This document shows positions 6,372-27,166 of a stretch of DNA of 64,000 nt, piece after piece. The notes below the pieces were generated by a model. It had not been told where the DNA came from. It saw only the letters and a program-made list of their open reading frames with translations, and did not search any database. The DNA is from a virus, in the IMG/VR virus record IMGVR_UViG_3300025889_000087, positions 1-64,000 of that record, one strand, 5' to 3'. A program made the position numbers and the translations under genes. The first letter of the stretch is position 1. Every line of letters begins with the position of its first letter.

Positions 6372-6941
6372 TCACATGCCCCCCATCATAGGTCCCGGCA
6401 TTGGCATAGCCCCCGGAGGCATACCTGCCGGTCCGGGCGCGGGCATGTTCGACAGGGAACCGGGACCGGGCATACCGGGCATACCGCCGCCCATTTCCAT
6501 TCCGGGCATGTGCTGCACCATTGGTGCATCTCGCAGGCGAATGACTTCGCACATGTTGCGCAGATCCTCGACCCGCTGACGCAGGGCCATGAGCGACTGA
6601 GCGTGGCCGAGAACCGTTTCGCCGTCGAGGTCCTCAGTGTAGCGGGATTGACCGATGGTTCCGATGTGCGCGGTGAGGTCGGTGGCAATATCTGTAAGCC
6701 GCTGCTCAACGTCAGCCAACGCTTCCTTGGACGAACCGTAGACCTTCCCTGATTGCATCAAAGCATCCATGTCCGCGGGTGAGGGACCGGCTGCGGGGGG
6801 AGGTGAAGGGGGGGCCGGAGGGGTGACTTGACCGGGCAGGGAGGCTAACTGTCCCGTCCCCTGATCGTCAGCCTTGCGAATGTCGGACATAATGGCGAGG
6901 GTCCTCATGCGGTCCGCAATAGAGGGGCTCCCACGATACAC
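6372..6941 (-). CDS. Met/Pro/Gly-rich protein with helical centre, 189 aa
   Basis: Not recognised. A Pro-rich linker (residues about 40-55) leads into a helical segment (about 60-135) with heptad character (ALADVEQRLTDIATDLTAHI). The last 50 residues are a low-complexity MPG/GMP run (MPGMEMGGGMPGMPGPG). The start is GTG at 6941, seven bases after the previous stop. Comparable Met/Pro/Gln-rich tails recur in several neighbours, which suggests they belong to one virion assembly. Confidence 0.65.
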   Translation of the reverse strand: MYRGSPSIADRMRTLAIMSDIRKADDQGTGQLASLPGQVTPPAPPSPPPAAGPSPADMDALMQSGKVYGSSKEALADVEQRLTDIATDLTAHIGTIGQSRYTEDLDGETVLGHAQSLMALRQRVEDLRNMCEVIRLRDAPMVQHMPGMEMGGGMPGMPGPGSLSNMPAPGPAGMPPGAMPMPGPMMGGM

Positions 6942-6947
6942 CGTAAA

Positions 6948-7370
6948 TCACTCCCGCTGAGGTCGCCAAAAGGTCGTGGAGCGACCGAGGCGGGACACGC
7001 CGAGAACGGTCGCGCCTTCGGTGCCGTCATAATCGCTGACGGTGTTCTTGTGAACCGCCACGTTGCCGAGAACCTGTCCGTCGCCAAGCACCCCATCGTC
7101 GCTCTTGGAGATGGCCGCCGTGGCCGCAAATGACTTTGCGAGGCTGAGGTCTCCTTCAAGCACCGACAGGGCGTTCTTCGCTGCCTCAAGGTGCTTTGCT
7201 ACGTCGTCCATGTTGTTGTGCGCAATTGCTTGCTGCATGGCCTCCATGCTCGCAACGGCACGACGCGCCATGGGGTCCATCTTCTGAATCAAGCCGAAGT
7301 CAAGGAAGCCTTCTGTCATCTCAACCAATCCTTGGGAAGCCACTATTGCACATGAAGGTTCCGTCTTCAA
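6948..7370 (-). CDS. Unknown small protein downstream of portal, 140 aa
   Basis: Mostly helical, alanine-rich (residues about 35-95), with a basic C-terminus ending FWRPQRE. The longest frame starts with a TTG that overlaps the portal stop as TTGA; an ATG at 7319 is the main alternative. The position directly after portal fits a small head protein, but no family was recognised. Confidence 0.6.
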   Translation of the reverse strand: MKTEPSCAIVASQGLVEMTEGFLDFGLIQKMDPMARRAVASMEAMQQAIAHNNMDDVAKHLEAAKNALSVLEGDLSLAKSFAATAAISKSDDGVLGDGQVLGNVAVHKNTVSDYDGTEGATVLGVSRLGRSTTFWRPQRE

Positions 7371-9163
7371 AAGCCCATTCTACGGTCCATATTATTCAAA
7401 CGCTCGTCCACGTTGCGTTCTTCGGGGGACTTTTCGGAATCACGCCGATCCTGCACCGTTTGACTCATGTGATGTTCACCCTCAAAGCGGTTCACGCGGT
7501 CAGGTGATTGGCCCGCACTACGGCGGCTATTGAGCCCCAATTGGGCATATCCCTGACGACGCAGGGGCGTAAGGTCTGTTCCGTTCGTGGTCGTCAGTGC
7601 TTCGGGAACCGGCACTGCGCCGTGGACGGCATCAGTCACAATGCGCTTTACGAGGTCGTCTGCCGTAAGCACGGGGAGCCAATCGCTCGTTTGCACTGGT
7701 CCACCGCCCGGTGGCGCAGGACCGCCTTCAGGACCCGGCCCCATTTGGGGAGGTGGGGGAGGTGCCTCCTTGTAGTCGAATTGGAGGTAGCCATCATCGT
7801 CACGCAGCCGCGCGTCATAGCCCGCCTGCTTCATTTGCAGCATATTGCGAATCGCCATTTCGTCGCGGCGCATCTGCATGATGTCGTCCTCTTCCTCGTG
7901 CGGCTTCAGGGTCATTTCCCATTCATCAATTTGAAATGCGGCGAGAAGAAGAGGGAACAGACGCCCGTTGTAGACGTTCTGACTGGCTGCAAGAGCGCGG
8001 TTTGTGACGACAATTTGCATACCCTCGTTGTTCAGGCCACCGCCGCTCACGTCGTTCATGAAGACGTTCGACACACCGTAAAAGGACGAGATGCGCTGCC
8101 GAATGTCGTCCTTAATTGGGATGTATTGCAGTTCCTCCAACGTGTCCATCATGCGAACGTATTCCAAACCACCGCGACCGCTCTCCGTTTCGACACCAAC
8201 TGTGGGGATGTATTGTGGGTCGCGCTCCAAATGCTCCTGAATGTTGCGAGCCGTGCGCTCGACCGTTTCAAGGTTGGACGACTTGATAACCATAACACCG
8301 CGAGGCATACGTCGCTTCTGATACGCCGCATACACATAATTGTCCATGGCGATTAGCGTGTTCACCTGACGCCACAGGGTCGCCACAGGCGAACGCCCAT
8401 ACAGTTTAGACGGCGACCATTTGCTCAAATGAATGACTTCGCCCTCGGTGTAGACCTGACCCGAACCAACACCTGCGAGATTCATGTAGTGGATAGGGAC
8501 GACGGGGAGACCAGTCTTCGGGCACTTCTCGTCCTTGTCGCTTGTGCGGAACGACCTATCGAGCAGACTCGTGTATTGCTTTCCACCCTTGACGCCACGC
8601 TTGTCCGCAACAATGCGCATGAAGATGGGGTCAGCGCGGGTAATTTCCTTGATGCGGTAGAACTGCGGCTTCCCCGTGTTCGGATCGACGAAGTATTCCT
8701 TGGTGAGAATGATGTATGCGTCGTCCACAATGTTGAGGTCCATTTCCACTTCGCGCATGACTTCAAGGAAAGACTGACCCATTCTGTTGTCTTCATTGAG
8801 CAGGGCATTGGCGTATTCCAATTGCCCATCATCGGCTCCACGCACTTCACCACCACACTTCATGCAATTGTCCACGTCACGCTTGTGCTCATTCTCACAT
8901 TCACGACACTTCTTGACGAACTTCGCTCGCCACTGCCAACCTTTCCTGAACGTCTCCGTTGCCAAGTGGTTGAGAATCGAGCGCAGAACGAGGCATTCGT
9001 ATGAAGCCGCATAAAGTGCGGGAATGGTGATGCCCTGAAGCAACGCCGGTTCCTGCACACCAGTGGTGAACAGGGGCATTTGCGGAGTCGGCGTTTCGTG
9101 CCGCTCCATGTCTACGCCAATTGCGGCAAAGAGACGATCAACCCGCTTCTTCTCATTCACCAT
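7367..9163 (-). CDS. Portal protein
   Basis: The portal forms the dodecameric ring at the capsid vertex through which DNA is packaged and ejected. The 598-residue length and the central pattern (EGEVIHLSKWSPSKLYGRSP, then VATLWRQVNTLIAMDNYVYA) are typical of the family, as is the helical crown segment that follows, with polar residues and PQYIPTVGVETESGRGGLEY. An unusual insertion near residues 85-105 holds four cysteines in a zinc-ribbon arrangement (CRECENEHKRDVDNCMKC). The C-terminus is Pro-rich (EAPPPPPQMGPGPEGG). The gene lies two genes downstream of the large terminase, the usual order, and overlaps its upstream neighbour by 11 bases. Confidence 0.88.
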   Translation of the reverse strand: MVNEKKRVDRLFAAIGVDMERHETPTPQMPLFTTGVQEPALLQGITIPALYAASYECLVLRSILNHLATETFRKGWQWRAKFVKKCRECENEHKRDVDNCMKCGGEVRGADDGQLEYANALLNEDNRMGQSFLEVMREVEMDLNIVDDAYIILTKEYFVDPNTGKPQFYRIKEITRADPIFMRIVADKRGVKGGKQYTSLLDRSFRTSDKDEKCPKTGLPVVPIHYMNLAGVGSGQVYTEGEVIHLSKWSPSKLYGRSPVATLWRQVNTLIAMDNYVYAAYQKRRMPRGVMVIKSSNLETVERTARNIQEHLERDPQYIPTVGVETESGRGGLEYVRMMDTLEELQYIPIKDDIRQRISSFYGVSNVFMNDVSGGGLNNEGMQIVVTNRALAASQNVYNGRLFPLLLAAFQIDEWEMTLKPHEEEDDIMQMRRDEMAIRNMLQMKQAGYDARLRDDDGYLQFDYKEAPPPPPQMGPGPEGGPAPPGGGPVQTSDWLPVLTADDLVKRIVTDAVHGAVPVPEALTTTNGTDLTPLRRQGYAQLGLNSRRSAGQSPDRVNRFEGEHHMSQTVQDRRDSEKSPEERNVDERLNNMDRRMGF

Positions 9164-10400
9164 TGTTTAGCCCCCTCTCCATGAGTTCGTCTTCGCTGAC
9201 GCCCCACGACTTGAGCAGGGACACTTGGGTGTGAGGCCCTGCCGTGTGATAAGCGATGTAGCGACCCGCCCATTCGTCGCCATTTGCACAACGAAGCAAT
9301 AGGTTGGCTTCGGGCTTTGCATTGTTGAGGTGCGGGAGGGCCACTTCGCAGGCTTTCAAGACCGCGCGGTCGCCCTCAATGACGAACTGCTCGCCCTCCC
9401 ACATGATGTTGCCCACGCCCAATGTGTGCTTCAACACGTCGGCATAATCCGGCCCACGCTTTGAGTCGAAAGGCAGAATCAAGCGGGGAGCATTGAGCGG
9501 CGTCATGCCGATTTCACCATCCATGTCCCACAAGTTGGCGATAAACCTGTCCACCGTCTTGAGCAGGATGGGTGGTTTGGTGCGACCATAGTAGAACGAG
9601 CGGTCGTCAGACCGACGACCCTTGCCGACGTTATGAATGTCGTAAAGGAAGCCGTGGGATTTGATGAGCGCGGATATTTCCGCCGACGTGCCTTGGAGGC
9701 CATGGGAAGTCATGGTTTGCACGTTCATATCACCGTATGCAGCAATCAGATCCGCAGCCTTTGCGAGAATGCCGCGCTCACGGCGGCTAAGGCGTGATTC
9801 TGCGCTCAACCTATCGCCCCATTCCTTCCATACGTCCTCTCGTTCTTCAGTCGTTTGTGCCCGACGAGAGGCTGCCACTGCTTTTCTGAACGGCAATTCC
9901 AAACGGTCAGGGTGCTGCGCGAGCATAGTGAAGTCTTGGTCACGGACGGAAATATGGCTCCAATCTTCCGTCTTCCACCAATCAAAATCAGAAAGAATGG
10001 CGTCCTGCTCCTGCTTCAACAAATTGAGCAGGCGAGGCACCATGTCCCCTTCGCCGTTCTCTTCCATAATTTTGATGATGGATTGGCCGTCTGTGCCGAA
10101 ATTGTCAATGAAGAAGGTCTTGGACACTTGCACGCGCGGGGTTGCGGTTGTGCCCGGTTGTTCCGTCGGAATGCCTTCGTTTGCGTTGCCCGTTAAGCCA
10201 GTGATTTGCGAACCGGCGGTAGCCTCGGGCGGCATAGCGTCGGCGGGTGTTTGTGCCTGAGCCTGCTCCTGCTCCCGCTCAGCCTCTTCCAATTCTTTCC
10301 GTTTGGTTTGCACTTTGGTGTCCGCAGCCTGCGTTAGCGGGTTTGCACCCATCAATTTCAGCAACATTCCCATATTTGACGCAGACACTTCTACCCTCAT
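9153..10400 (-). CDS. Terminase-portal intergenic protein with C-terminal LAGLIDADG-like domain
   Basis: The N-terminal 100 residues are a charged coiled coil with a linker (KRKELEEAEREQEQAQAQ). The middle is unrecognised. The last 130 residues look like a LAGLIDADG homing-endonuclease core: FIANLWDMDGEIG (286-298) in the place of the active-site helix, LGVGNIMWEGEQFVIEG (about 324-340), then ALPHLNNAKPEANLLL (354-369), which matches the family's LxPxLxxKxxQAxLxL signature. ATG at 10400 forms an ATGA overlap with the terminase stop and follows GGTGGG, so it is preferred to an upstream start at 10427. It may be a structural protein that captured an endonuclease domain. Confidence 0.65.
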   Translation of the reverse strand: MRVEVSASNMGMLLKLMGANPLTQAADTKVQTKRKELEEAEREQEQAQAQTPADAMPPEATAGSQITGLTGNANEGIPTEQPGTTATPRVQVSKTFFIDNFGTDGQSIIKIMEENGEGDMVPRLLNLLKQEQDAILSDFDWWKTEDWSHISVRDQDFTMLAQHPDRLELPFRKAVAASRRAQTTEEREDVWKEWGDRLSAESRLSRRERGILAKAADLIAAYGDMNVQTMTSHGLQGTSAEISALIKSHGFLYDIHNVGKGRRSDDRSFYYGRTKPPILLKTVDRFIANLWDMDGEIGMTPLNAPRLILPFDSKRGPDYADVLKHTLGVGNIMWEGEQFVIEGDRAVLKACEVALPHLNNAKPEANLLLRCANGDEWAGRYIAYHTAGPHTQVSLLKSWGVSEDELMERGLNNGE

Positions 10401-11839
10401 GCTGCCCACCCCAAACGTCGCGTCCATTCGGATCCGTCAAGCACCACGATGGCGTCTTTGAACTCCTTCGTGGCCTGCACTGAGAGGGCGAGGGCCATAA
10501 CGGTGTCGTCGTGTTTTCCGAGCGATTCCATCTTCCCGTTCGGGAGCATTGTGAACATGGACAATTCGTTCGTGAGCACGTCCATAAGGCGGCGCGTAGC
10601 CCCGTCGTCTTTGTAGGGGAGAATCAAATGCCGTTGCTCAAAGTGCAATTGCAGCGTGTGGATGACGGCTTCCTTCTTCATGCGACTCATGGTGAACGGC
10701 TTAACGGGAAGGTCGCTGATTTCCTTTAGCACCTGATGAAATGCTTGGGCGAAATTGTTCGTTTCAAGTTCGATAATCACGGGATTATACCGTGTATTTA
10801 ATTCAATGATTTTATCAATTTGCGAACTGAAATCCATGCCCTTCTCGCGGTGCATCCACACCACACGCTTGTGCTTGTTCTCATCCACGGCGAGCACGAC
10901 CATGCAGGTGTAGTCAGCGGAGCGATCGGGGCTGATAGCAGGGTCCCAACCGATGTAATAATTCACTTCCTCACGGTCTTCCTCGGGAATTGCGTAGGGG
11001 TCGAATTGAAATGCCCACGACGTGTCCTTGCATGGCTCCACCATATCTTCGGGGAACAGGCTCGCGTCACTGGCGATTGGACGACACAGGTATTCGCGCG
11101 TGAACGCAATAGAAGTCATTTCGCTACGTCGGGCCTGAAGAGCCTCAAGGCTCCATCGTTCGGGCCAAAGCGGATCGCCAGTCTGCTCACTGATAGCGGG
11201 ATATTCCTTGACCATATACCCCTTGAGCGTCTTCAGTTCTTGGTAAAGGTCGGTGTAAGAGAAGGGTGTGCCGACAATGCACATTTGCGCAGTGTGGTGA
11301 AGCACGGGCAGGAGAGCGGTGTAAAACCATGAAGCGATGTGGGCCAATTGCGTGGATGCTTCGGACGACAGAATGTCGTCAAGCACCACGATGTCGGGGT
11401 GAGCACCACGCACTGCCTTTCCGACCGACATAGCAGAAATCGAGGATTTGTTCGTCATCTTGAACTTCTGCTTCGCCCACCCACGCGAGGGCTTTAGGTG
11501 TGCGAGAACAGGCGTGGACATGATCAATTCGTCCATCTTCGCCATGTGGTCGATAGACTGATGCTGACTGTGGGAAAAGAACAGGACTTCCGTTCCGGGG
11601 TTATACGCCATTTTCCACAAAAGGTAGACGCGGTAAAACACGGATTTTCCGTGGTCGCGGGATGCAATCACGCAAGTTTTGTTGTGGCTCTCGGAGAGAT
11701 TGAACCATTCTTCATGAAAGTCTGCCAACTGGTAGCCGTCGTCCTTCCCGCATATTTCCTCAAAAAAGAACTTGAATGAACGGCGGCCCATTTCCCAATC
11801 GACTTTGTTCGCCAATTGGAGAACGGCCTCGCCGCTCAT
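10397..11839 (-). CDS. Terminase large subunit
   Basis: This is the DNA-packaging motor. Its ATPase half has Walker A ASRDHGKS (59-66) and Walker B DIVVLDD (149-155). Its nuclease half has the acidic residues of an RNase H-fold terminase nuclease: GWDPAISPDRSADYT with Asp299, IIELETNNF with Glu357/Glu359, and KHDDTVMALALS near residue 450. At 480 residues it is a normal full-length terminase. It overlaps both neighbours by four bases (ATGA), so translation is coupled through the packaging genes. Confidence 0.93.
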   Translation of the reverse strand: MSGEAVLQLANKVDWEMGRRSFKFFFEEICGKDDGYQLADFHEEWFNLSESHNKTCVIASRDHGKSVFYRVYLLWKMAYNPGTEVLFFSHSQHQSIDHMAKMDELIMSTPVLAHLKPSRGWAKQKFKMTNKSSISAMSVGKAVRGAHPDIVVLDDILSSEASTQLAHIASWFYTALLPVLHHTAQMCIVGTPFSYTDLYQELKTLKGYMVKEYPAISEQTGDPLWPERWSLEALQARRSEMTSIAFTREYLCRPIASDASLFPEDMVEPCKDTSWAFQFDPYAIPEEDREEVNYYIGWDPAISPDRSADYTCMVVLAVDENKHKRVVWMHREKGMDFSSQIDKIIELNTRYNPVIIELETNNFAQAFHQVLKEISDLPVKPFTMSRMKKEAVIHTLQLHFEQRHLILPYKDDGATRRLMDVLTNELSMFTMLPNGKMESLGKHDDTVMALALSVQATKEFKDAIVVLDGSEWTRRLGWAA

Positions 11840-17629: not shown

Positions 17630-18865
17630 TCAGCAATTCCACCTTTTCAGTGCAGCACCCTTCGGGGTGAGTTTCCCGCCCTTGCTCGTCGGGCCCTTGA
17701 CGCCGCTCATGCGGGCGCAGAACGACTTTCGCCGCTTTGCTTTCTCCGAACCGGGTTTGAGGGTAGACGGCTTCTCGGTGACGGGGGGCTTCAGGTTCGC
17801 GCCCTCTTCACGCTTGAACTTCGCACGGCCCTTGGCGTTGAGGCCACCCTCGCGGCTATGCCGGTTGGGGTTATAGCCGTGAAATGGCTTGTCCGATTTT
17901 TTCCGCAATACATCGGCCCATGAAATACCATTGATGTAAGACGCGGTGAACATACCTGATGGATCGGAAAGGGGCTGCTGCGGCTCACAAGCGTCCCATT
18001 CATCCAAAATGCTTTCTAACGCGGAGACGAACTCCCTGTGAATTGCGATTGATTGGCGGGCTCGTTGTTGATTGGAGGGCAATTCTTCCATCGCCCTCAT
18101 GCGTGCTTCGGGGTCCTCATAGCCCATGATGATTTTTTGCGCTCTCCCATTCAGCCATTCTTCATCCTCGGGAATGGTGTTCGTTAGGTAATGTTCAATG
18201 TTCATCTGAATGTTTTCCCAAAGTTCCGCGCAACTATACGTTTCCCAAGGGTCGAACAGATCGCGTGTGTAATCATCCAATCCTCGGATTTTCGCGCAAA
18301 AGTCGTCCGCAGCCGCAAGGGCTTTCATCCGTGCTTCTTCGCAACAAGGGTCGCCTGTATCAATACCGAGCGTGGCATCTTCGACATCTTCCCCGACATC
18401 CTCCCCGACATTTTCCAAATCAAATCCTTGATCGCCCATTGTTTGGCGGGGAAAAATAGAGCGAGAAGGCATGTAGTCGAGTCCCTCTTTCAACAAATCT
18501 TCACGAATGTAAAACGCCTTCGCCAGTGTGAGGCACGAATCACAGTCGCACATTTTCACCATGGTTGGCTTCCCTCCGACTCCTTGCGGTTTTGAACGCT
18601 TGCGGCGTGTCGCCGCCTTCTTCTCCTGCGGACTCATGCTACGGGTGGTTTTAGGGGTGTCGGAGGACACCTTCTTTGATGGGCGGCACTTCGGGTAGCC
18701 CCGAGAGGAAGTGTCGGCCTCATCACGCCCGCAGGGCGGGTGCTTCCCGTCCTTGTCCTTCCGGCTTACGTCCACCCATTCTTCCTTGAACCAACGCCGA
18801 AGGTCCTTTTCAATCAAAAGTTCGGAGAATGGGGCGGTCAATCTTTGCCCCCCTTCCTTTTCCAC
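17630..18865 (-). CDS. Cys-rich protein with two marine-phage-type Lys/Arg domains
   Basis: Residues about 20-85 form a basic domain (DLRRWFKEEWVDVSRKDKDG, then CGRDEAD, YPKC and a KKAATRRKRSK end). Residues about 330-411 form a second one (GGLNAKGRAKFKREEGANLK, then KAKRRKSFCARMSG). Both are common in marine phage proteins of unknown function; I believe the second is catalogued as DUF6321. The centre contains CDCDSC and CC clusters and the phrase GMFTASYINGISWADVLRKK (from about residue 304), shared with the protein encoded at 27163-29316. The longest frame begins GTG at 18865; a TTG at 18841, after AGGGGGG and overlapping the previous stop as TTGA, is an attractive alternative. Confidence 0.75.
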   Translation of the reverse strand: MEKEGGQRLTAPFSELLIEKDLRRWFKEEWVDVSRKDKDGKHPPCGRDEADTSSRGYPKCRPSKKVSSDTPKTTRSMSPQEKKAATRRKRSKPQGVGGKPTMVKMCDCDSCLTLAKAFYIREDLLKEGLDYMPSRSIFPRQTMGDQGFDLENVGEDVGEDVEDATLGIDTGDPCCEEARMKALAAADDFCAKIRGLDDYTRDLFDPWETYSCAELWENIQMNIEHYLTNTIPEDEEWLNGRAQKIIMGYEDPEARMRAMEELPSNQQRARQSIAIHREFVSALESILDEWDACEPQQPLSDPSGMFTASYINGISWADVLRKKSDKPFHGYNPNRHSREGGLNAKGRAKFKREEGANLKPPVTEKPSTLKPGSEKAKRRKSFCARMSGVKGPTSKGGKLTPKGAALKRWNC

Positions 18866-19035: not shown

Positions 19036-19262
19036 TGGTATTCCTCCCTTATATCATCAGGAAAGCCATAGGGGTCGTGAATCACTCTTCCGGTCAGGTC
19101 CACAAGTGAAGACTCAACGTGTTCATTCGGGTCGAAGCAATCAGCGCAAATGATCGTATCGCCATCCAAGTCGATGAAATCATCGGTTTCCTTTCCGCAC
19201 ACTTCACAATAATACGGGTCGCTCTTGACGACAGACCAAGCGGCTTCAAAGGCTCCGCTCAT
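19032..19262 (-). CDS. AFDxAW-tagged zinc-ribbon protein, 76 aa
   Basis: It starts MSGAFEAAWSVVKSDPYY, the shared N-terminal peptide, and continues as a zinc ribbon with CEVCGKETD and CADCFD (four cysteines in two CxxC pairs). The tail is acidic. It overlaps the HMG-CoA lyase gene upstream and the DUF5872-like gene downstream by ATGA on both sides. The zinc ribbon gives no specific activity. Confidence 0.8.
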   Translation of the reverse strand: MSGAFEAAWSVVKSDPYYCEVCGKETDDFIDLDGDTIICADCFDPNEHVESSLVDLTGRVIHDPYGFPDDIREEYQ

Positions 19263-20107
19263 GCAATTGCTACGATGGCTTCCCCGTCTTTATGCGTGTC
19301 GGCTCGTATGTCGTTCACCACAGACAGTGCAGCGTCAAGATTACCCACGCCGGTATTCGCGCCCCATGCTCGCAAATGATGGACAAGAACTTCAGTCGCA
19401 AGATTCGCCCCGCTTTTTTCAGCAAACGGGCAGCCACCAAGACCACCGATAGAGGAATCGAATTGACTGATGCCTGCAAAGATGCCTGCACGAACCAGTC
19501 GGAGAGGCTTTGCTACATCACCCCTGTGGTGAAGATGGAGGGCAGGTTCGACTCCTGCTTCTCGTGCGAGTTGGGCGAAGAGCACCACGTCTTTCTCAGT
19601 CCCAACGCCCACAGTGTCGGCAAACACAACCGTGTTCCCGAACATAGCAGCATCGCGCACCACTGATCGAATAGTGCCTTCGGAAAACACACCGGAATAC
19701 GGAGAGCCAAACGCCATAGAAACGTAGACACGCACGTTTTCCTTGGGGTAGCCGTTGAGGAACGTCCACAATTCATGGACTTTTTCGCTGCGCGTCTTCC
19801 CCATGTTTTTCATGCTGAAATGCTCACAGGGGCTCAAAACGATATTGATTTTCTCGACACCGACTTTGAGAGCCCGCTCAAAACCTCGGCGGTTCATCAC
19901 CAACGCTGAGCCACGACCGCTAAACACTTCTTCTGCGTCTGCCATTTGCGGCACCAATTTTGGGTGCGCAAATGACACTTCTTCGACGTGAACCAAACCC
20001 GCGTCGTAAAGGCAGCGAATCAATTCTCGCTTTTTTTCGCTCGGCACAAAGTCGGACAACGATTGCAGACCGTCACGAGGACCCACCTCGTAGACGGTCA
20101 CGCGCAC
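19259..20107 (-). CDS. Hydroxymethylglutaryl-CoA lyase homologue
   Basis: HMG-CoA lyase splits HMG-CoA into acetyl-CoA and acetoacetate. The 282 residues cover the whole TIM-barrel enzyme: YEVGPRDGLQ (6-15, catalytic Arg11/Asp12), SFAHPKLVPQMADAEEV, SMAFGSPYSG, FADTVGVG, LHLHHRGD with His191/His193 in the metal-binding HxH, and the family signature GGLGGCPFAEKSG with catalytic Cys226. The metal/catalytic residues recognisable here are all present; HDT after the second His is changed to HRG. The start is GTG. It sits between virion genes with 4- and 10-base overlaps, so it is a stable operon member. In archaea HMG-CoA is also the mevalonate precursor, so the enzyme could redirect isoprenoid carbon or serve leucine catabolism. 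Confidence 0.85.
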   Translation of the reverse strand: MRVTVYEVGPRDGLQSLSDFVPSEKKRELIRCLYDAGLVHVEEVSFAHPKLVPQMADAEEVFSGRGSALVMNRRGFERALKVGVEKINIVLSPCEHFSMKNMGKTRSEKVHELWTFLNGYPKENVRVYVSMAFGSPYSGVFSEGTIRSVVRDAAMFGNTVVFADTVGVGTEKDVVLFAQLAREAGVEPALHLHHRGDVAKPLRLVRAGIFAGISQFDSSIGGLGGCPFAEKSGANLATEVLVHHLRAWGANTGVGNLDAALSVVNDIRADTHKDGEAIVAIA

Positions 20108-20572: not shown

Positions 20573-21283
20573 TCATCCCTCGTCAAGAACCCCCGCTTCG
20601 GTGAGAGCATTTCGCAGGACGCGCCATTCTTCAGGGGACTTCTCGGAGAAGTGGGCCTGAATCACGGTCAGGACGTTCACCTGCTGCGACTCTTCAATGG
20701 TCGTAGCAGCCGTCAGGTATTCCGCCAAGTCGGAGAGCGTGTCGCGGATTTCACGGTGCAATTTCACCGCGGTGTCCAAGCCCTTGAAGTCAAGAATGCC
20801 CGACTCGACGCGCTCCGCATTCATCAAATCCATGTGATCGTTGAACACGTCGTTCAGCCGGTTCAGGTTCCGCTCAGTCCGCCGCATGGCGTCACTGACG
20901 CTCGTAATCGCGTTGGGAATGTTCTCAATCTGCGCTTGGCGTTGAATGATGGGCGCGGCGTGCCGTTCCATGTGGTGAGACACTGCCGTTTCCGTCATTT
21001 CCAATTCGACGGCCATGTCTGCAATACCGGCAATACCTCCGAGCACGGCTGCCTCAATTGCACTGCGCTCAGGATGGGTGCAAATGGGGCATTCAGAATT
21101 GCTTGCATTGTGGTATTCGCCGGAATGGCGGCGCATGTGTCGATGAGCCGTTCCTTCAGCCCACGACTGGTCGCGATCCAAATCCCCGACTTCAAGCAGA
21201 CCGATTCGCACGTTCTGCTCGTATTCATCACGGCGCGGGTGTTGGCAGAAGGGGCAATTGCGCCGAGTCTGCCTCCCCGTCAT
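20573..21283 (-). CDS. Duplicated zinc-finger/HTH protein, candidate small terminase or regulator
   Basis: The N-terminal 110 residues hold two copies of one motif: CPFCQHPRRDEYEQNVRIG ending in HRHMRRH, and CPICTHPERSAIEAAVLGG ending in VSHHMERH. Each resembles a Cys-Cys...His-His zinc unit wrapped round a helix-turn-helix (MAVELEMTETAVSHH). The rest is a long helical rod (about 120-205). DNA-binding head plus oligomerising coiled coil is the design of many small terminase subunits, and no other small terminase is visible in the virion operon. A transcription regulator is the alternative. Confidence 0.7.
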   Translation of the reverse strand: MTGRQTRRNCPFCQHPRRDEYEQNVRIGLLEVGDLDRDQSWAEGTAHRHMRRHSGEYHNASNSECPICTHPERSAIEAAVLGGIAGIADMAVELEMTETAVSHHMERHAAPIIQRQAQIENIPNAITSVSDAMRRTERNLNRLNDVFNDHMDLMNAERVESGILDFKGLDTAVKLHREIRDTLSDLAEYLTAATTIEESQQVNVLTVIQAHFSEKSPEEWRVLRNALTEAGVLDEG

Positions 21284-21481: not shown

Positions 21482-21730
21482 TCAAGTCCGAAAGGATGCG
21501 AATTGCCGAATGGCGACCGAGAAAGTCAAAATGAGTCCAAAGAACGCGCTCATCATCTGCCCTGCCGAGAGGCTACCGCCCTTCCACACGAGGATAACGA
21601 AAGCCACGAGCATGAACGTGATGATGTAGATCATCGTTGCGCTTTCAACGAGCATCTTTCGTGGACTGAACAAATCCACGCTCGCACTGGCCCAATTCAT
21701 TTCAGCGGGACGTTCCTTTGCTTTTTCCAT
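21482..21730 (-). CDS. Small two-helix membrane protein, 82 aa
   Basis: Two predicted membrane spans: ESATMIYIITFMLVAFVILV (about 29-48) and MMSAFFGLILTFSVAI (about 59-74), separated by a short polar turn, with charged ends. Size and topology would suit a holin-like or virion membrane-interacting protein, but archaeal-virus lysis proteins are too poorly known to name it. ATG at 21730 is preferred to the TTG at 21736. Confidence 0.65.
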   Translation of the reverse strand: MEKAKERPAEMNWASASVDLFSPRKMLVESATMIYIITFMLVAFVILVWKGGSLSAGQMMSAFFGLILTFSVAIRQFASFRT

Positions 21731-21732
21731 CG

Positions 21733-22368
21733 TCAAATCATCACCGCCCCTGCTGCACCGCCAACCTTAGCCGCAGTGGCACCAAAACCACCTTGGGTTT
21801 GAATTGCGTTGCCCATCATACCTCCAATCAAGTTCCCAAAGAATCCCGGCTGCTGCTGTTGCGGCATCATCCCACCCTGCTGATGAGCCATGAGGAACAT
21901 TTGGATTTGCTGCTGATTGGCCGTAATAGAGGACTGTGCCGCCTGTTGCACCTGCTGAAGTGTAAGGGCCAAGTTCTCCTGCGAAAGCGTCTGCAATTGG
22001 TGAGGCATTGACGCAAAGTCCACCTTCATGTGGTCGCCTTCCTGCTTAAGCGTTGCAGCGGCGAAGAACTCCTTGAGCGAGAGCATGACGACTTCGCTAA
22101 TCAAATCCATGACAAGGCCCATGTTTTGCGTCACAACGAATGCCGACACGGGATCATGAAGGCCGAGAAGGCGGGAAGTGGCGATGACCGGATCGTTGGC
22201 TTGTTGCTGCATCATGGGGTTCTGAGCAAAAGCCATCATAGCGGTCGGGTCTTGCCCCCATCCCATGGGTTGCTGCTGCATCATGCCCATGCCACCCATG
22301 CCACCCATGCTACCAACGCCGAATTGCTGCGGCTGCGGTTGGTTGTTGTTTCTACCGAAAAGTCCCAT
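21733..22368 (-). CDS. Gln/Met-rich protein, 211 aa
   Basis: The N-terminal 60 residues are low complexity (SMGGMGGMGMMQQQPMGWG). The middle is folded and hydrophobic-helical (VIATSRLLGLHDPVSAFVVT, then LISEVVMLSLKEFFAA). The C-terminus combines Gln runs with glycine-rich helices that may insert in membrane (FFGNLIGGMMGNAI, KVGGAAGAVMI). Not recognised; the composition resembles the other virion-operon proteins. Confidence 0.65.
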   Translation of the reverse strand: MGLFGRNNNQPQPQQFGVGSMGGMGGMGMMQQQPMGWGQDPTAMMAFAQNPMMQQQANDPVIATSRLLGLHDPVSAFVVTQNMGLVMDLISEVVMLSLKEFFAAATLKQEGDHMKVDFASMPHQLQTLSQENLALTLQQVQQAAQSSITANQQQIQMFLMAHQQGGMMPQQQQPGFFGNLIGGMMGNAIQTQGGFGATAAKVGGAAGAVMI

Positions 22369-22377
22369 TCATTCACC

Positions 22378-23274
22378 TCATGCGGTCAGCATTGTTTCAG
22401 GCACCGCCATTTGCCTTTGCGGATTCAAACCAACTGCTACTTGTTGGCTCATTTGCTCCATTTGCAGTGCTCGCAAATCAAAGGTAATCGTGACGAGATC
22501 GGCAACGCCAGTCATCGGGTTCGGATGTTGGTTGATGACTACACCCTTTGAATGTTGGGCATCCATTTGCACCATGCGGAAGAATTGCTCGTATTTCATC
22601 AGCGACTCCGGCGTAGAGCGATTCTGCTTTGTGCTGCCACTCATACCGGGAACACGGAGGAAACGGGTGCCCTTTGACGTAGCAGGGGCGAAGCCGTCTT
22701 CAGCCAACTGGTGCTCTTCGACAAGACACCGCAACGTGTGGTAGATGTGCAGGTGGGCGGGACATAGCGTCGAGTTCATCTCATCCCCGTGGTCCCCGTG
22801 TGTGCGTGCGTGAGGCTTTCGTGCCTGCCCCGTGTCCTCGTCAAACCAATAAATGTCGGCCAATGAGAGTCCGGTGCGTTCATCTGAAATGTGATTATAG
22901 GCATTGTCGCCCTCAAGGAAACGGCGCACGTCCACGCCGCAACAGGCACATTCGTGCGCTGCGTTATAACGATACACCTTGAACAGACCAAGGTTGTAAT
23001 TTGGTGGACGGAGAGCCTTTCGCAGAATCTTGATGTTCTTACGGCGAGCCTTACCCGGATTCTTTGGATTGGTCTTGAGACGCACTTCAACTGTCGGCAT
23101 CATCATGTCTTCGTCCATGCCCGAACCCTGAGATCCCGCGCTCGCCATTTCAGCCCGCTGCTGCGCTTTGAGCAATTCAAAGGCCACGCCGGTATGTCCG
23201 GCGAGGGAGCGCAGTTCATCGTCGGAAAGACCTTTCAGGCTCATGCCGCCGCCCATAAACGGGATGAATTGCAT
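22378..23274 (-). CDS. Unknown Cys/His-containing virion-operon protein, 298 aa
   Basis: Not recognised. A basic segment (PKNPGKARRKNIKILRKALR, about 70-90) precedes a CACCGVDVRRFLEGDNAYNH motif that could bind metal together with later His/Cys residues (THGDHGDEMNSTLCPAHLHI). The C-terminal third is helical. The order of elements recalls small treble-clef or HNH-like metal sites, but the expected His-Asn-His spacing is not clear, so no activity is assigned. Confidence 0.65.
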   Translation of the reverse strand: MQFIPFMGGGMSLKGLSDDELRSLAGHTGVAFELLKAQQRAEMASAGSQGSGMDEDMMMPTVEVRLKTNPKNPGKARRKNIKILRKALRPPNYNLGLFKVYRYNAAHECACCGVDVRRFLEGDNAYNHISDERTGLSLADIYWFDEDTGQARKPHARTHGDHGDEMNSTLCPAHLHIYHTLRCLVEEHQLAEDGFAPATSKGTRFLRVPGMSGSTKQNRSTPESLMKYEQFFRMVQMDAQHSKGVVINQHPNPMTGVADLVTITFDLRALQMEQMSQQVAVGLNPQRQMAVPETMLTA

Positions 23275-23324: not shown

Positions 23325-24053
23325 TCAAAGCAAGTCTACGGTATCAATCACTGCTCTTTCCACATTCAATCCAAATTGCGCAGCAATTGCTTCTACGTTA
23401 GTCGCCACCGCGGCTTTCCTCAGCCTCCGCAATTCATGTTGAAAAGGGAGGACTAAGGGGTGCTGCCGCTTGAAGCCATGCTCCCACATGTTCGCTGCCT
23501 GAAGATCCCACCAAAGGTCCATTTTATTCAGCAAAAGGCAGACCACCTTCGGTTTGAACATCTTCGCTCGTTTGCGTTGAACGCGGTTCAGCGTTTCGGG
23601 AATGTGTTTGTTCGTTATCAAGTCCACAATGTATTGAAAACCCGCCACGGCTTCTTGGCGAAGGTATTCCGAATAGAGAATCCGATGGTCGATGACATAG
23701 AACACAATGCTCACGTTGCGTTCGACCATATCTTCAGCCCACAGGTTCCAATAACGGCTTTCACCGCCAACGTCGGCTGAAGTCACGGGGACCTTCCGCC
23801 CATTCCACCGGACCTGCTTCTTTGTGCTATGAGGGCGATCCACCTTCCCGTGCCGCACGGGGTGGGTTGTCCGCAATTCGTGAGGAATGGGCTCGATGTC
23901 GCCGGGAACGGTCAAGAATTGGTCGAGAGTCGTTTTACCGCTAAGGGAGGGGCCATAGACACCAAAGCGGTGAGGGCGAATGATGCGATAGAGGTATGCC
24001 GCCAATTGCGCCGAGCCCATCAGGACGTGGCCGACGAAGATCCAAGACGACAT
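23325..24053 (-). CDS. Ras/Arf-like small GTPase with N-terminal membrane segment
   Basis: A P-loop GTPase with its motifs in order: G1 GPSLSGKT (34-41), G3 DVGGE (94-98), and G4 NKMD (176-179) at the end of a hydrophobic strand (KVVCLLLNKMDL). The length of 242 fits a single small-GTPase domain. Residues 4-25 (WIFVGHVLMGSAQLAAYLYR) could be a membrane anchor. The G3 form DVGGE, where Ras has DTAGQ, is closer to Arf and bacterial MglA than to translation GTPases. It is next to two small membrane proteins in the same run, so a membrane-surface switch is plausible. GTPases of this class are very unusual in viruses. Confidence 0.75.
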   Translation of the reverse strand: MSSWIFVGHVLMGSAQLAAYLYRIIRPHRFGVYGPSLSGKTTLDQFLTVPGDIEPIPHELRTTHPVRHGKVDRPHSTKKQVRWNGRKVPVTSADVGGESRYWNLWAEDMVERNVSIVFYVIDHRILYSEYLRQEAVAGFQYIVDLITNKHIPETLNRVQRKRAKMFKPKVVCLLLNKMDLWWDLQAANMWEHGFKRQHPLVLPFQHELRRLRKAAVATNVEAIAAQFGLNVERAVIDTVDLL

Positions 24054-24062
24054 GACTTCCCC

Positions 24063-24290
24063 TCAACCGCGGTGAAACATCCAGTCCCACACGGTCGTTG
24101 GGGTCACGCTCAAAAATGCGTCGAGGCCAACCATGACAAGGAACGTCAGGCAATTGCCGACGACAAAGGAGAGAATAGCCTTGAAGGTCCACGTCATGCG
24201 CTCAAGACGCCGCTCATATGCGTTTTCAGCAAGAATGCTCGCCATCGCTTCCGCTTGGCGTTCCTGCTGCGTGTTGAACGGCCACGCCAT
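24063..24290 (-). CDS. Single-span membrane protein, 75 aa
   Basis: A charged N-terminal helix (residues 8-32) precedes one membrane span, FKAILSFVVGNCLTFLVMVG (36-55). Ten bases separate it from the GTPase start downstream. Not recognised. Confidence 0.65.
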   Translation of the reverse strand: MAWPFNTQQERQAEAMASILAENAYERRLERMTWTFKAILSFVVGNCLTFLVMVGLDAFLSVTPTTVWDWMFHRG

Positions 24291-24299
24291 GAATCCCCC

Positions 24300-24731
24300 T
24301 CACTGGGCGTCCTTCTTTTCACCTTCGTTTTGTTGAGGGACGCCGAATTGCGACATGCCAATGCCATAAGGAGGGTATTCATTTCGCTGCGTGTCCTTCC
24401 GAATACGTCGTTGCTGAAGGCGGGCCTGCTGCTGATACCACTTGTCGTAGCGTGACTCTTGGGCAAACTCCGCACGCATGGCGAGCGAATCACGAAGACC
24501 ACCGACGTGAAAGAGCACCATAGAAATGCACAGGAACCCGAAGGTAATGAGGCCGTATTGCAGCCCCATTTCAGCGGGGCCTGCATCCGGCAAATACCAG
24601 TCGAGATGGCTCAGCGTGACTGATACGCCTACGAGCAACGATTGCCACAAAAGCATGGCGATCAGGTTGATGTCAATACGGTTCTCATCCAATGCGGCCC
24701 ATGGTGGTATGGGCGGGTTGTTTTGCTGCAT
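24300..24731 (-). CDS. Two-span membrane protein with charged tail, 143 aa
   Basis: Two membrane spans (INLIAMLLWQSLLVGVSVTL, about 21-40; GLQYGLITFGFLCISMVLFH, about 56-75) are followed by a highly charged Arg/Gln-rich tail of about 60 residues. With the 75- and 82-residue neighbours it forms a cluster of small membrane proteins next to the GTPase. Not recognised. Confidence 0.65.
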   Translation of the reverse strand: MQQNNPPIPPWAALDENRIDINLIAMLLWQSLLVGVSVTLSHLDWYLPDAGPAEMGLQYGLITFGFLCISMVLFHVGGLRDSLAMRAEFAQESRYDKWYQQQARLQQRRIRKDTQRNEYPPYGIGMSQFGVPQQNEGEKKDAQ

Positions 24732-24912: not shown

Positions 24913-25992
24913 TCAGTGATATAGCACAGACCACCCAACCGCGAATGCGTCTTGGGATTTGCCGAACAGTTTTCCCTGCTCCATGTATCGTTGTTGTGGG
25001 TAGTGCTTGAACCAGTCCAAACCGGGAATGTTGGCATACGCAATCATTTCAGGTCGAGGGCCTCGTTCCGCTCCTTTGCCCCCGCTTCTGTCCATTCGTG
25101 TATTCAACACAGTGTCGAACCCCTCGGCGTCGTAAAACGGGCGAGCAAATGCTGAATTGAAAGCAACAACCGGAAGCCCCTGCCTCGCCAAGCCCCCCGC
25201 CCATTCGGCCATTGGTTGCTGAAGATCGTCAAAGCCACCCGGCGTGTAGGTCCCCCGTTCCATGTAATACGGCGAGTCAAGAACGAGGAAATCCTCTTCG
25301 GGGATAATGAGGCCGTTTTCCATCACTTCTTCAATGCCCATGTTGCGCAAATCCCAACCCTGCATCAATGGTGCGTAGTGTGAATAATCCCAAGATGGGG
25401 GATATTTGATGGGGCTTCCGTATGGGAGATCGGTGTAATTTCCGAAATCACCCCGCGCACCCCCCTGCCAACCTGATTGTTGCATCATCAGCCACATTTG
25501 CGCCATCAGCATTTTCTCTTCGGGACTCCTTTCTTCTTGAGGGGGCAGGTTGAGCATAAGATCATTCACTGAGCCCTGACTCGGGGGCCATGAACCCATC
25601 CCCGTCGGCGTTCCGCCGCGAAGCCTCTCATAGTATGTCTCCTTGTCCACGACATCATCTTCATTGGTGAATTGCGACCAATCAACGCTAAATCCGTCAG
25701 GATTCTGAATGTGAGCGAACGCATTTATGAGGTTCGGGTTGAGGTCGGACAACAAAGCCCGTTCGGGTTGCAGGTTCAGGGGAATGTTCCCACCGCCAAG
25801 GAATGGATCGACAAGGCGACGATGACGACCCACACGATTGAATGCGTCACGGAGGGGGCCAATGTAGTGAGGTCGGCCCTTGCTTCCTTGCCACCTTAGC
25901 GGGGAAGGGACGCGGGTTTTTCCCGTAATGTCTTGCATGGCTGCCCACGCTGCTTTTTCAGGTGTCATTTTGCGACCGCGAACTTCCATCAT
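24913..25992 (-). CDS. D12-class (Dam-like) adenine-N6 DNA methyltransferase
   Basis: It carries the class order: PLRWQGSKGRP (31-41) in the place of the RYxGGK motif, SAM-binding VDPFLGGGN (61-69), LSDLNPNLINAF, and the catalytic tetrad as DSPYY (239-243), where the usual DPPY has Pro changed to Ser. A long insertion between motifs contains the target-recognition region. The last residues, DAFAVGWSVLYH, resemble the AFDxAW peptide found elsewhere, although at the C-terminus. ATG at 25992 or 25989 follows TGGGGGA and is preferred to an upstream start that overlaps the previous gene. Confidence 0.82.
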   Translation of the reverse strand: MMEVRGRKMTPEKAAWAAMQDITGKTRVPSPLRWQGSKGRPHYIGPLRDAFNRVGRHRRLVDPFLGGGNIPLNLQPERALLSDLNPNLINAFAHIQNPDGFSVDWSQFTNEDDVVDKETYYERLRGGTPTGMGSWPPSQGSVNDLMLNLPPQEERSPEEKMLMAQMWLMMQQSGWQGGARGDFGNYTDLPYGSPIKYPPSWDYSHYAPLMQGWDLRNMGIEEVMENGLIIPEEDFLVLDSPYYMERGTYTPGGFDDLQQPMAEWAGGLARQGLPVVAFNSAFARPFYDAEGFDTVLNTRMDRSGGKGAERGPRPEMIAYANIPGLDWFKHYPQQRYMEQGKLFGKSQDAFAVGWSVLYH

Positions 25993-26002
25993 AATTCCCC
26001 CA

Positions 26003-27166
26003 TCATGCCTTCGTCCCCGCCCAATTTGGCCCAAACTGCAATTGCATGGCCCGCTCCATCTCGTCTTCGGTCAATTGCCGTTTGCCGTTTTTATCATGGT
26101 GTAGATAAGCGATGGTGACTGTCGGGTCCCAACAGGCACGGCAACCAAGGTCGCCCGTGCGCGGGTCAATGTTTGAATTGCAGTTCGACTTTGTTCCCCT
26201 CAGTGTTTTGGGACAAACGACCGAGTTCCTGCCCACCGCGTCGTATGTGGATGCTGAAATGCGCGGATGGCGCAGCAAATCAGCGATATTCGTTCCTGCG
26301 TATTCCGCATCGGGGCTGAGGGTGTCCATGGTTTCCCGTCCGGGCAACGAAATGCGCACGTTCACGTTTGATGGGAAAGCGTCGTCTTCCCACCCGCGAG
26401 CGTCGAGGAATTGCTCAAGGAAAGGCAATTGGCGAGTCGCCATCCAAAACCGCATATTCTCATGGGGCAGGGCTTGAGCCGCCAGATCGCTCACCTGCGA
26501 ATAGGAGCCGGGTCCCCGTGCGTCACCGGCAGTGAAAACGCGCACTGGAACACCGCTTGCCGATTCACGCCGCGAGATGTTTTGACTTGCGTCGTTATAG
26601 AGGACTTCTTGCATTCCCGACATGAAGGGATCAGAATCACCGAGGGCTTGGTCTATTCTCGCCCACAGGTTGTTTTGGACGTTGTTCATCGGATAACGGT
26701 TTTCACAAGCGTAGCAGTGTCCACACGCTGAGTCAGGGTCATTCCGCGTGGCGTAAATGCAGGCTTCGGGTGGGAAATCCATGATACCAATACCGGGCAT
26801 GGCCTCGGTGGTCGTGAAGCGCGAAAAGGCATCCCGTGCTCCCTGCTTCGTCGCGGGCAGGTTCAAGTCCCGAGCGACTTCAGACCACGGGGCAATTTCA
26901 CGACCTTCAAGTGGATAATCGACCAAACGCGGCTTCCCGTCGTCGTCACGCAACCAATCCCGCCATTTCCCTTGATTTGCGTTAAGCCAATCGAAGATTT
27001 CCTGATTACCACCACCGCCCTGTGCATATGTTCCCGACTGTTGCGGTGTCGGGTGGCTCCCGCCATACCGCTTATCCCACCAAAACATCTCATCCGGATC
27101 GCCCAATGCCTTCAGCAACACCCCGACGAGGGGCTCAAGGGCAATTGAACGGAGAATTATGCTCAC
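26003..27166 (-). CDS. Gp88-like cysteine-rich phage protein
   Basis: The layout follows the phage Gp88 family (PF17338 in my recollection): an opening cysteine cluster (CIYATRNDPDSACGHCYAC), a paired N-rich helix, a VRVFTAGDARGPGSYSQVSD segment equivalent to the family's RxHxSGDF, the FWMATRQ strand, and a closing cluster (VCPKTLRG, NCNSN, GCRACWD) followed by VTIAYLHH. The family is of unknown function; the cysteines suggest metal or Fe-S binding. The start is GTG, overlapping the upstream stop as GTGA. It lies between a methyltransferase and a metallopeptidase-motif protein. Confidence 0.65.
   Translation of the reverse strand: MSIILRSIALEPLVGVLLKALGDPDEMFWWDKRYGGSHPTPQQSGTYAQGGGGNQEIFDWLNANQGKWRDWLRDDDGKPRLVDYPLEGREIAPWSEVARDLNLPATKQGARDAFSRFTTTEAMPGIGIMDFPPEACIYATRNDPDSACGHCYACENRYPMNNVQNNLWARIDQALGDSDPFMSGMQEVLYNDASQNISRRESASGVPVRVFTAGDARGPGSYSQVSDLAAQALPHENMRFWMATRQLPFLEQFLDARGWEDDAFPSNVNVRISLPGRETMDTLSPDAEYAGTNIADLLRHPRISASTYDAVGRNSVVCPKTLRGTKSNCNSNIDPRTGDLGCRACWDPTVTIAYLHHDKNGKRQLTEDEMERAMQLQFGPNWAGTKA

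Follow-up and report, generated by a model that had tools for sequence, protein, structure and literature searches.

The open reading frame at 23325..24053 (minus strand) of the 64,000-nucleotide stretch analyzed here (the window, positions 1 to 64,000 of a source record of 96109 bases) is predicted, from its motifs and a structural model, to encode a small GTPase of the Ras/Arf superfamily (TRAFAC), set in a block of genes for membrane and soluble proteins that is conserved among related viruses. We assign a joint probability of roughly 0.4 to the reading that this Arf-like GTPase is a core gene of a tailed-virus group, the magroviruses of marine Poseidoniales, and that its product, through presumed GTP binding and membrane attachment, runs a membrane module, perhaps for egress. 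Arf-like GTPases are best known from eukaryotic membrane traffic, and to our knowledge the route by which tailed archaeal viruses leave their cells is largely unknown. The conserved block of GTPase and membrane proteins, in viruses of hosts seemingly without such switches, suggests a virus-made machine at the cell membrane. For an abundant group of marine archaeal viruses it would be a concrete exit candidate with dedicated membrane proteins; it would also mean that a virus controls an Arf-like switch in a prokaryotic order seemingly without one, which bears on how broadly such membrane switches operate beyond eukaryotes.

Motifs and predicted fold of the viral GTPase

The frame runs from an ATG at 24053 to a stop at 23325 and encodes 242 aa. 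Motifs were assessed in an alignment of 51 sequences (A2), consisting of the window protein and members from 50 of 84 collected loci (L023, which has no in-frame start codon, was omitted and L082 was added), with 93 to 37% identity to the window protein. GPSLSGKT, DVGGE and NKMD, read as small-GTPase motifs in the initial annotation, do occur in the order and spacing claimed. All lie on the minus strand: the G1/P-loop GPSLSGKT (residues 34–41, 23931..23954), with G34, G39, K40 and T41 each in 51/51; the switch I/G2 pair Arg61-Thr62 (23868..23873), each residue likewise in 51/51; G3 DVGGE (residues 94–98, 23760..23774), with D94 and G97 in 51/51; and G4 NKMD (residues 176–179, 23517..23528), with N176, K177 and D179 in 51/51. 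A G5-like AAQFG (residues 224–228, 23370..23384), absent from the initial list, follows the family pattern [SA][AST][QRK]-x-G, with G228 in 51/51. Because the key residues are invariant in all 51 sequences, chance occurrence of the motifs is excluded. The family G3 pattern is D-x-[GA]-G. At residue 98, which corresponds to the catalytic Gln, 35 members carry Q, 10 carry D and 6, among them the window protein, carry E. The gene is under purifying selection (dN 0.039, dS 1.45 and dN/dS ~0.03, window versus L001). Near-identical loci are present in the collection (for example L002/L003/L011 and L070/L084), and counts of loci are thus not counts of independent events.

Taken singly, the window protein gave no significant GTPase match in Pfam, NCBIfam or PHROGs, no listed match to Pfam Arf (PF00025) at E <= 10 and a weak best match in a single-sequence PDB search (Rab-like IFT22, E 0.012). 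Across the family, 30/51 members matched Pfam Arf at E <= 1 (best 2e-4), and the members with printed scores (L030 at 19.3 and L082 at 19.8) did not reach the cut-off of 22.3 bits. A sequence-profile search of the PDB returned the Asgard protein GerdArfR1 as the best solved relative (E 1.6e-6); hits to RecA in that search were discarded because they covered just the P-loop, 14 residues that recur in fusion chains. The identification as a GTPase is firm through the family profile and the model, not through the window protein by itself.

An AlphaFold2 model built from 13 sequences had a pLDDT of 70.5, and that from 51 sequences reached a pLDDT of 85.8 and a pTM of 0.83. Small GTPases headed the 1206 PDB matches that Foldseek gave at E <= 0.001. 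Among the matches listed, Arf6 (2a5d) was the best (Z 18.6, 2.2 Å over 161 residues), and Arf6, Arl3, Arl1 and Arf1 came first (Z 18.6 to 17.7), the leading Arf/Arl matches mostly at an rmsd of 2.2–2.6 Å across ~160 residues. GerdArfR1 (Z 17.4), an SRP/SR-receptor complex (6frk_v, 16.7), a RagA-like protein (16.1) and Rab5 (16.0) were next, in a ranking that covers the families listed and in which differences of <1 Z are ties. The model, the Foldseek matches and a structural realignment together back the Ras/Arf-superfamily assignment made initially. A kinase or other P-loop class, the structural outcome that had been named as contradicting this assignment, did not appear in the model and was rejected, the top structural matches being small GTPases.

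In its modeled fold the viral GTPase is Arf-like, but it is not a filed Arf. It shares with Arf/Arl proteins (PF00025) the fold (Z 18.6 to 17.4), the DxGG(Q) switch II, the NKxD motif and a putative hydrophobic N-terminal helix ahead of the G domain. It differs from them in that identity is ~20%, the protein is viral with fixed viral partners, E or D replaces the catalytic Gln in 16/51 members and two predicted helices (residues 129–165) lie in the region of the third and fourth core strands. Rab/Ras GTPases of giant viruses (Edafosvirus, Mimivirus and others) are also virus-encoded small GTPases and gave the top BFVD structural matches; unlike the protein studied here, they are Rab/Ras-like and belong to viruses of eukaryotic hosts, with 9–19% identity among the 50 matches listed.

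The model and hydropathy place a hydrophobic helix, a possible membrane anchor, at residues 2–25 (23979..24050, minus strand). The model pLDDT over its first 20 residues is ~55–66, and its hydrophobic moment is 0.27 in the window protein and 0.15 to 0.49 among the 11 members printed. A Kyte–Doolittle value of 1.6 over 19 residues was reached at the N-terminal segment by 0/84 relatives. The N-terminal segment noted initially is therefore hydrophobic as described, and falls below a classical transmembrane (TM) helix.

A conserved gene block and its spread among related viruses

A first IMG/VR scan found 16 relatives of the GTPase, and a profile of 13 sequences found relatives encoded by 252/267 candidate IMG/VR stretches. 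The 84 loci comprise the best 80 of these 252 relatives, the first-scan loci and three loci from GTDB genomes. Profiles of the window's neighboring genes were run against the ORFs at each of the 84 loci and recovered a block of constant order and strand. In the window (minus strand throughout), it begins with a 143-aa membrane protein (24300..24731), which has one to two TM stretches in most relatives and was found in 81/84 loci; in the three others the contig starts <520 nt from the GTPase. A 75-aa single-TM protein follows (24063..24290), detected in 53/84 loci with a first seed and, after a second seed, in the same place in 84/84. Beyond the GTPase lie a 298-aa Cys/His-rich, probably metal-binding protein (22378..23274), a 211-aa Gln/Met/Gly-rich protein (21733..22368), an 84-aa TM protein (21482..21736) and a 236-aa Cys/His-rich protein that ends the block (20573..21283), each present in 84/84 loci. 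Spacing in the window is operon-like, with genes mostly ~10 nt apart or overlapping and 50 nt after the GTPase. Co-conservation of the GTPase with the membrane genes at 24063–24731 and 21482–21730, proposed initially as a check, is thus complete apart from the three truncated loci. Three partner families searched against PDB profiles gave nothing at E <= 0.1, and block members gave weak matches only in PHROGs and Pfam, with no structural annotation.

That the window derives from a tailed virus is confirmed by its terminase large subunit (TerL; 10397..11839, minus strand; phrog_38, 4.8e-76) and portal protein (7367..9163, minus strand; phrog_18178, 4.5e-56), both encoded on the same strand as the GTPase. 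TerL served as the denominator for gene presence. Of 77 TerL loci, the 35 on records of at least 20 kb were searched, and the GTPase was found in 25/35, 9.3–12.6 kb upstream of TerL. Nine of the ten misses have 0.1 to 7.9 kb of sequence upstream of TerL, and the tenth carries an unrelated TerL (24% identical). All 25/25 informative TerL relatives hence encode the GTPase (L168 was counted across record ends), which is not a sporadic capture.

The window resembles Magrovirales (Aoguangviridae and Apasviridae) in genome size, terminase and portal, Poseidoniales host, GroEL and, by eye, an HMG-CoA-lyase-like gene. GroEL is encoded near the terminase/portal region of the window, an arrangement described for magroviruses (ICTV Aoguangviridae, PMC10768690). 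The ICTV profiles of Apasviridae and Aoguangviridae do not mention a GTPase, and a word search found no GTPase words in passages of PMC10160649. In the open-access papers searched, we encountered no small GTPase attributed to these viruses, and an earlier description is possible. What is new here is the core-gene and gene-block setting; the small GTPase as a kind of protein is known. A tblastn search with the GTPase gave no match in the Phages collection, a result of little weight because that collection lacks both of the magrovirus records looked up by name. In the related halovirus HVTV-1 (bases 1–100000 of 102319), no block homologue was found at E <= 1, the sole match at that threshold being the DNA methyltransferase neighbor.

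Cellular relatives and proposed role

The proposed host, marine group II (MGII, Poseidoniales), is supported by a 106-kb contig from a Poseidoniales single cell, whose GTPase and TerL, ~9.2 kb apart, share 49% and 76% identity, respectively, with those of the window; because this contig carries both genes, the virus group can be tied to a Poseidoniales host. Within 145 genomes of the order, the viral GTPase profile matched in 1/145, this being the virus in the infected cell. Pfam Arf (PF00025) matched 0/40 Poseidoniales-order genomes and an ArvA profile 0/140, the latter having recovered 6/6 source genomes in a positive control that included sequences used to build it. Roc matches were found in 2/140, one of them over the cut-off; G067 is the sole genome of the 140 with over-cut-off Roc-type GTPase matches (L107 and L109–L111). 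Some Poseidoniales genomes are incomplete, and a single absence carries little weight. In the wider phylum (Thermoplasmatota), 45 of 194 genomes matched the viral profile; apart from the virus itself, these matches were weak (E 1.6e-5 to 9e-4). The initial statement that MGII archaea and their relatives have small GTPases thus holds for the wider phylum, which does have ArvA-type GTPases, and is not supported for MGII by these Arf, ArvA and Roc searches. The suggestion that the gene was captured from such a host is not supported: the Poseidoniales searches for the viral profile, Arf and ArvA gave no cellular match, and recent host capture was rejected.

The 19 cellular loci fetched all encode one GTPase family. 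Pfam searches for both OapB and OapC at three of them identified the two as neighbors each time, and OapB also neighbors the GTPase at a fourth; because of these neighbors the family is identified as ArvA/OapA. ArvA/OapA of other Thermoplasmatota is the closest cellular sequence found, and Mills et al. 2024 (PMC10927574) showed that it is required for, and drives, vesicle formation in Haloferax. Viral and ArvA proteins are alike in the IGIYGPxxxGKTTL and IPHE-x-R-like switch I elements, length (~220–240 aa) and an N-terminal helix, but the likeness is limited to the P-loop and switch I, over which alone the profiles align in hhalign (95.5% over 43 columns). The ArvA G3 is DTPG (D84, T85, P86 and G87 invariant in 14 aligned ArvA-like sequences), whereas the viral G3 is D-x-[GA]-G, and the viral block lacks ArvB (OapB) and ArvC (OapC): neither matched in five block neighbors at E <= 10, and the Cys/His protein scored 1.0% against OapC in hhalign. 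Membership in ArvA was rejected because of the different G3 and the missing ArvB/C. Judged from sequence, common ancestry of the two is possible.

In the mechanism we propose, the N-terminal helix would anchor the GTPase at the host membrane, GTP binding would shift switch I and II and so draw in the membrane and soluble proteins encoded alongside it, and the complex would remodel or open the host membrane late in infection, leading to egress, lysis or vesicle formation. The virus would in this way supply a membrane-GTPase function seemingly missing in the host. Because the catalytic Gln position is Q, E or D, hydrolysis of GTP may be slow or depend on a partner. Lysis, motility and superinfection exclusion, the uses suggested initially, are candidate roles. 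We favor a membrane role because of the motifs, the model, the strict block, its place on the portal and TerL strand, the core presence and the purifying selection, and because the nearest cellular sequence found is a vesicle GTPase, with no ArvA or Arf match in the hosts. Against it count the partners, which have no detectable known fold or membrane-remodeling role; the N-terminal helix, which is weakly hydrophobic, of low moment and of low model confidence; the short span of the ArvA similarity and the printed Arf scores below the Pfam cut-off; and the linkage to virion genes, which fits a role in the virion or its assembly equally well. An extension of the idea, in which the viruses introduced an Arf/ArvA-type vesicle-forming GTPase system into an order that had lost or never had it, for budding, wrapping or release of particles or vesicles through the archaeal membrane, is unlikely; if true, a prokaryotic tailed virus would encode a coat-like membrane-remodeling machine.

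A function in the virion, with the GTPase and small membrane proteins acting in head or tail assembly or carried for entry and GTP serving as an assembly or delivery checkpoint, is the strongest rival because the block lies on the portal/terminase strand. Its position 9.3–12.6 kb upstream of TerL and invariant order suit such a module too, and the Gln/Met-rich protein could be structural. TM proteins are, however, unusual in tailed virions, yet every one of the 84 blocks encodes them, and the absence of structural annotation for any block member in PHROGs or Pfam also counts against this reading, which we hold to be fairly unlikely. The structural matches also allow a receptor or targeting GTPase resembling SR-beta, in which an N-terminal membrane segment precedes an Arf-like domain, that would place viral membrane proteins. 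The SRP/SR-receptor complex is among those matches, SRPRB was weakly matched by 9/51 members (best 0.01) and the gene order pairs the GTPase with TM proteins; since Arf/Arl structures score higher and the block neighbors scanned include no SR-alpha-like partner, we hold it to be quite improbable.

A further reading is a membrane GTPase complex for superinfection exclusion or counter-defense, comparable to the GTPases of prokaryotic conflict systems, that would block other viruses or the defenses of the host. Defense genes are usually patchy, whereas this block is present in 84/84 loci, the GTPase occurs in every informative TerL record and purifying selection on it is strong. Weak matches to DO-GTPase2 (5/51 members, best E 0.063) and to EAD7 (2/22 members of the Cys/His family, best 0.0033, the window member being under the cut-off) point toward it, as does a membrane location, which would suit exclusion proteins; it is nonetheless decidedly improbable. 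That the gene is a recently captured host GTPase of minor importance to the virus is highly implausible and largely contradicted already: ArvA-type GTPases do exist in other Thermoplasmatota, but they were not found in Poseidoniales, and the gene is core in divergent relatives (to 37% identity) within an invariant block.

Variable genes and atypical loci around the block

Upstream of the block, the genes for a Dam-type DNA methyltransferase and a gp88-like protein (24913–26034 and 26003–27166, minus strand) are variable, lying on the same strand in 33/84 and 42/84 loci, respectively. On the other side, an HMG-CoA-lyase-like gene identified by eye (19259–20107, minus strand) stands amid virion genes, with a variable position and presence in 13/84 loci, and a protein of 411 aa containing the domains DUF6321 and DUF5872 (17630–18865, minus strand) is patchy (20/84 loci). 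The GTPase and the entire viral block also occur in Asgard and Cytophagaceae metagenome-assembled genome contigs (L083 and L084), probably mis-binned virus; L084 matches the IMG/VR locus L070 in both length and contig size. In L048, ~0.87 kb of extra DNA (6750–7615), perhaps an inserted gene, separates the GTPase from the Cys/His gene, giving an offset of 1614 where the other loci have a median of 755.
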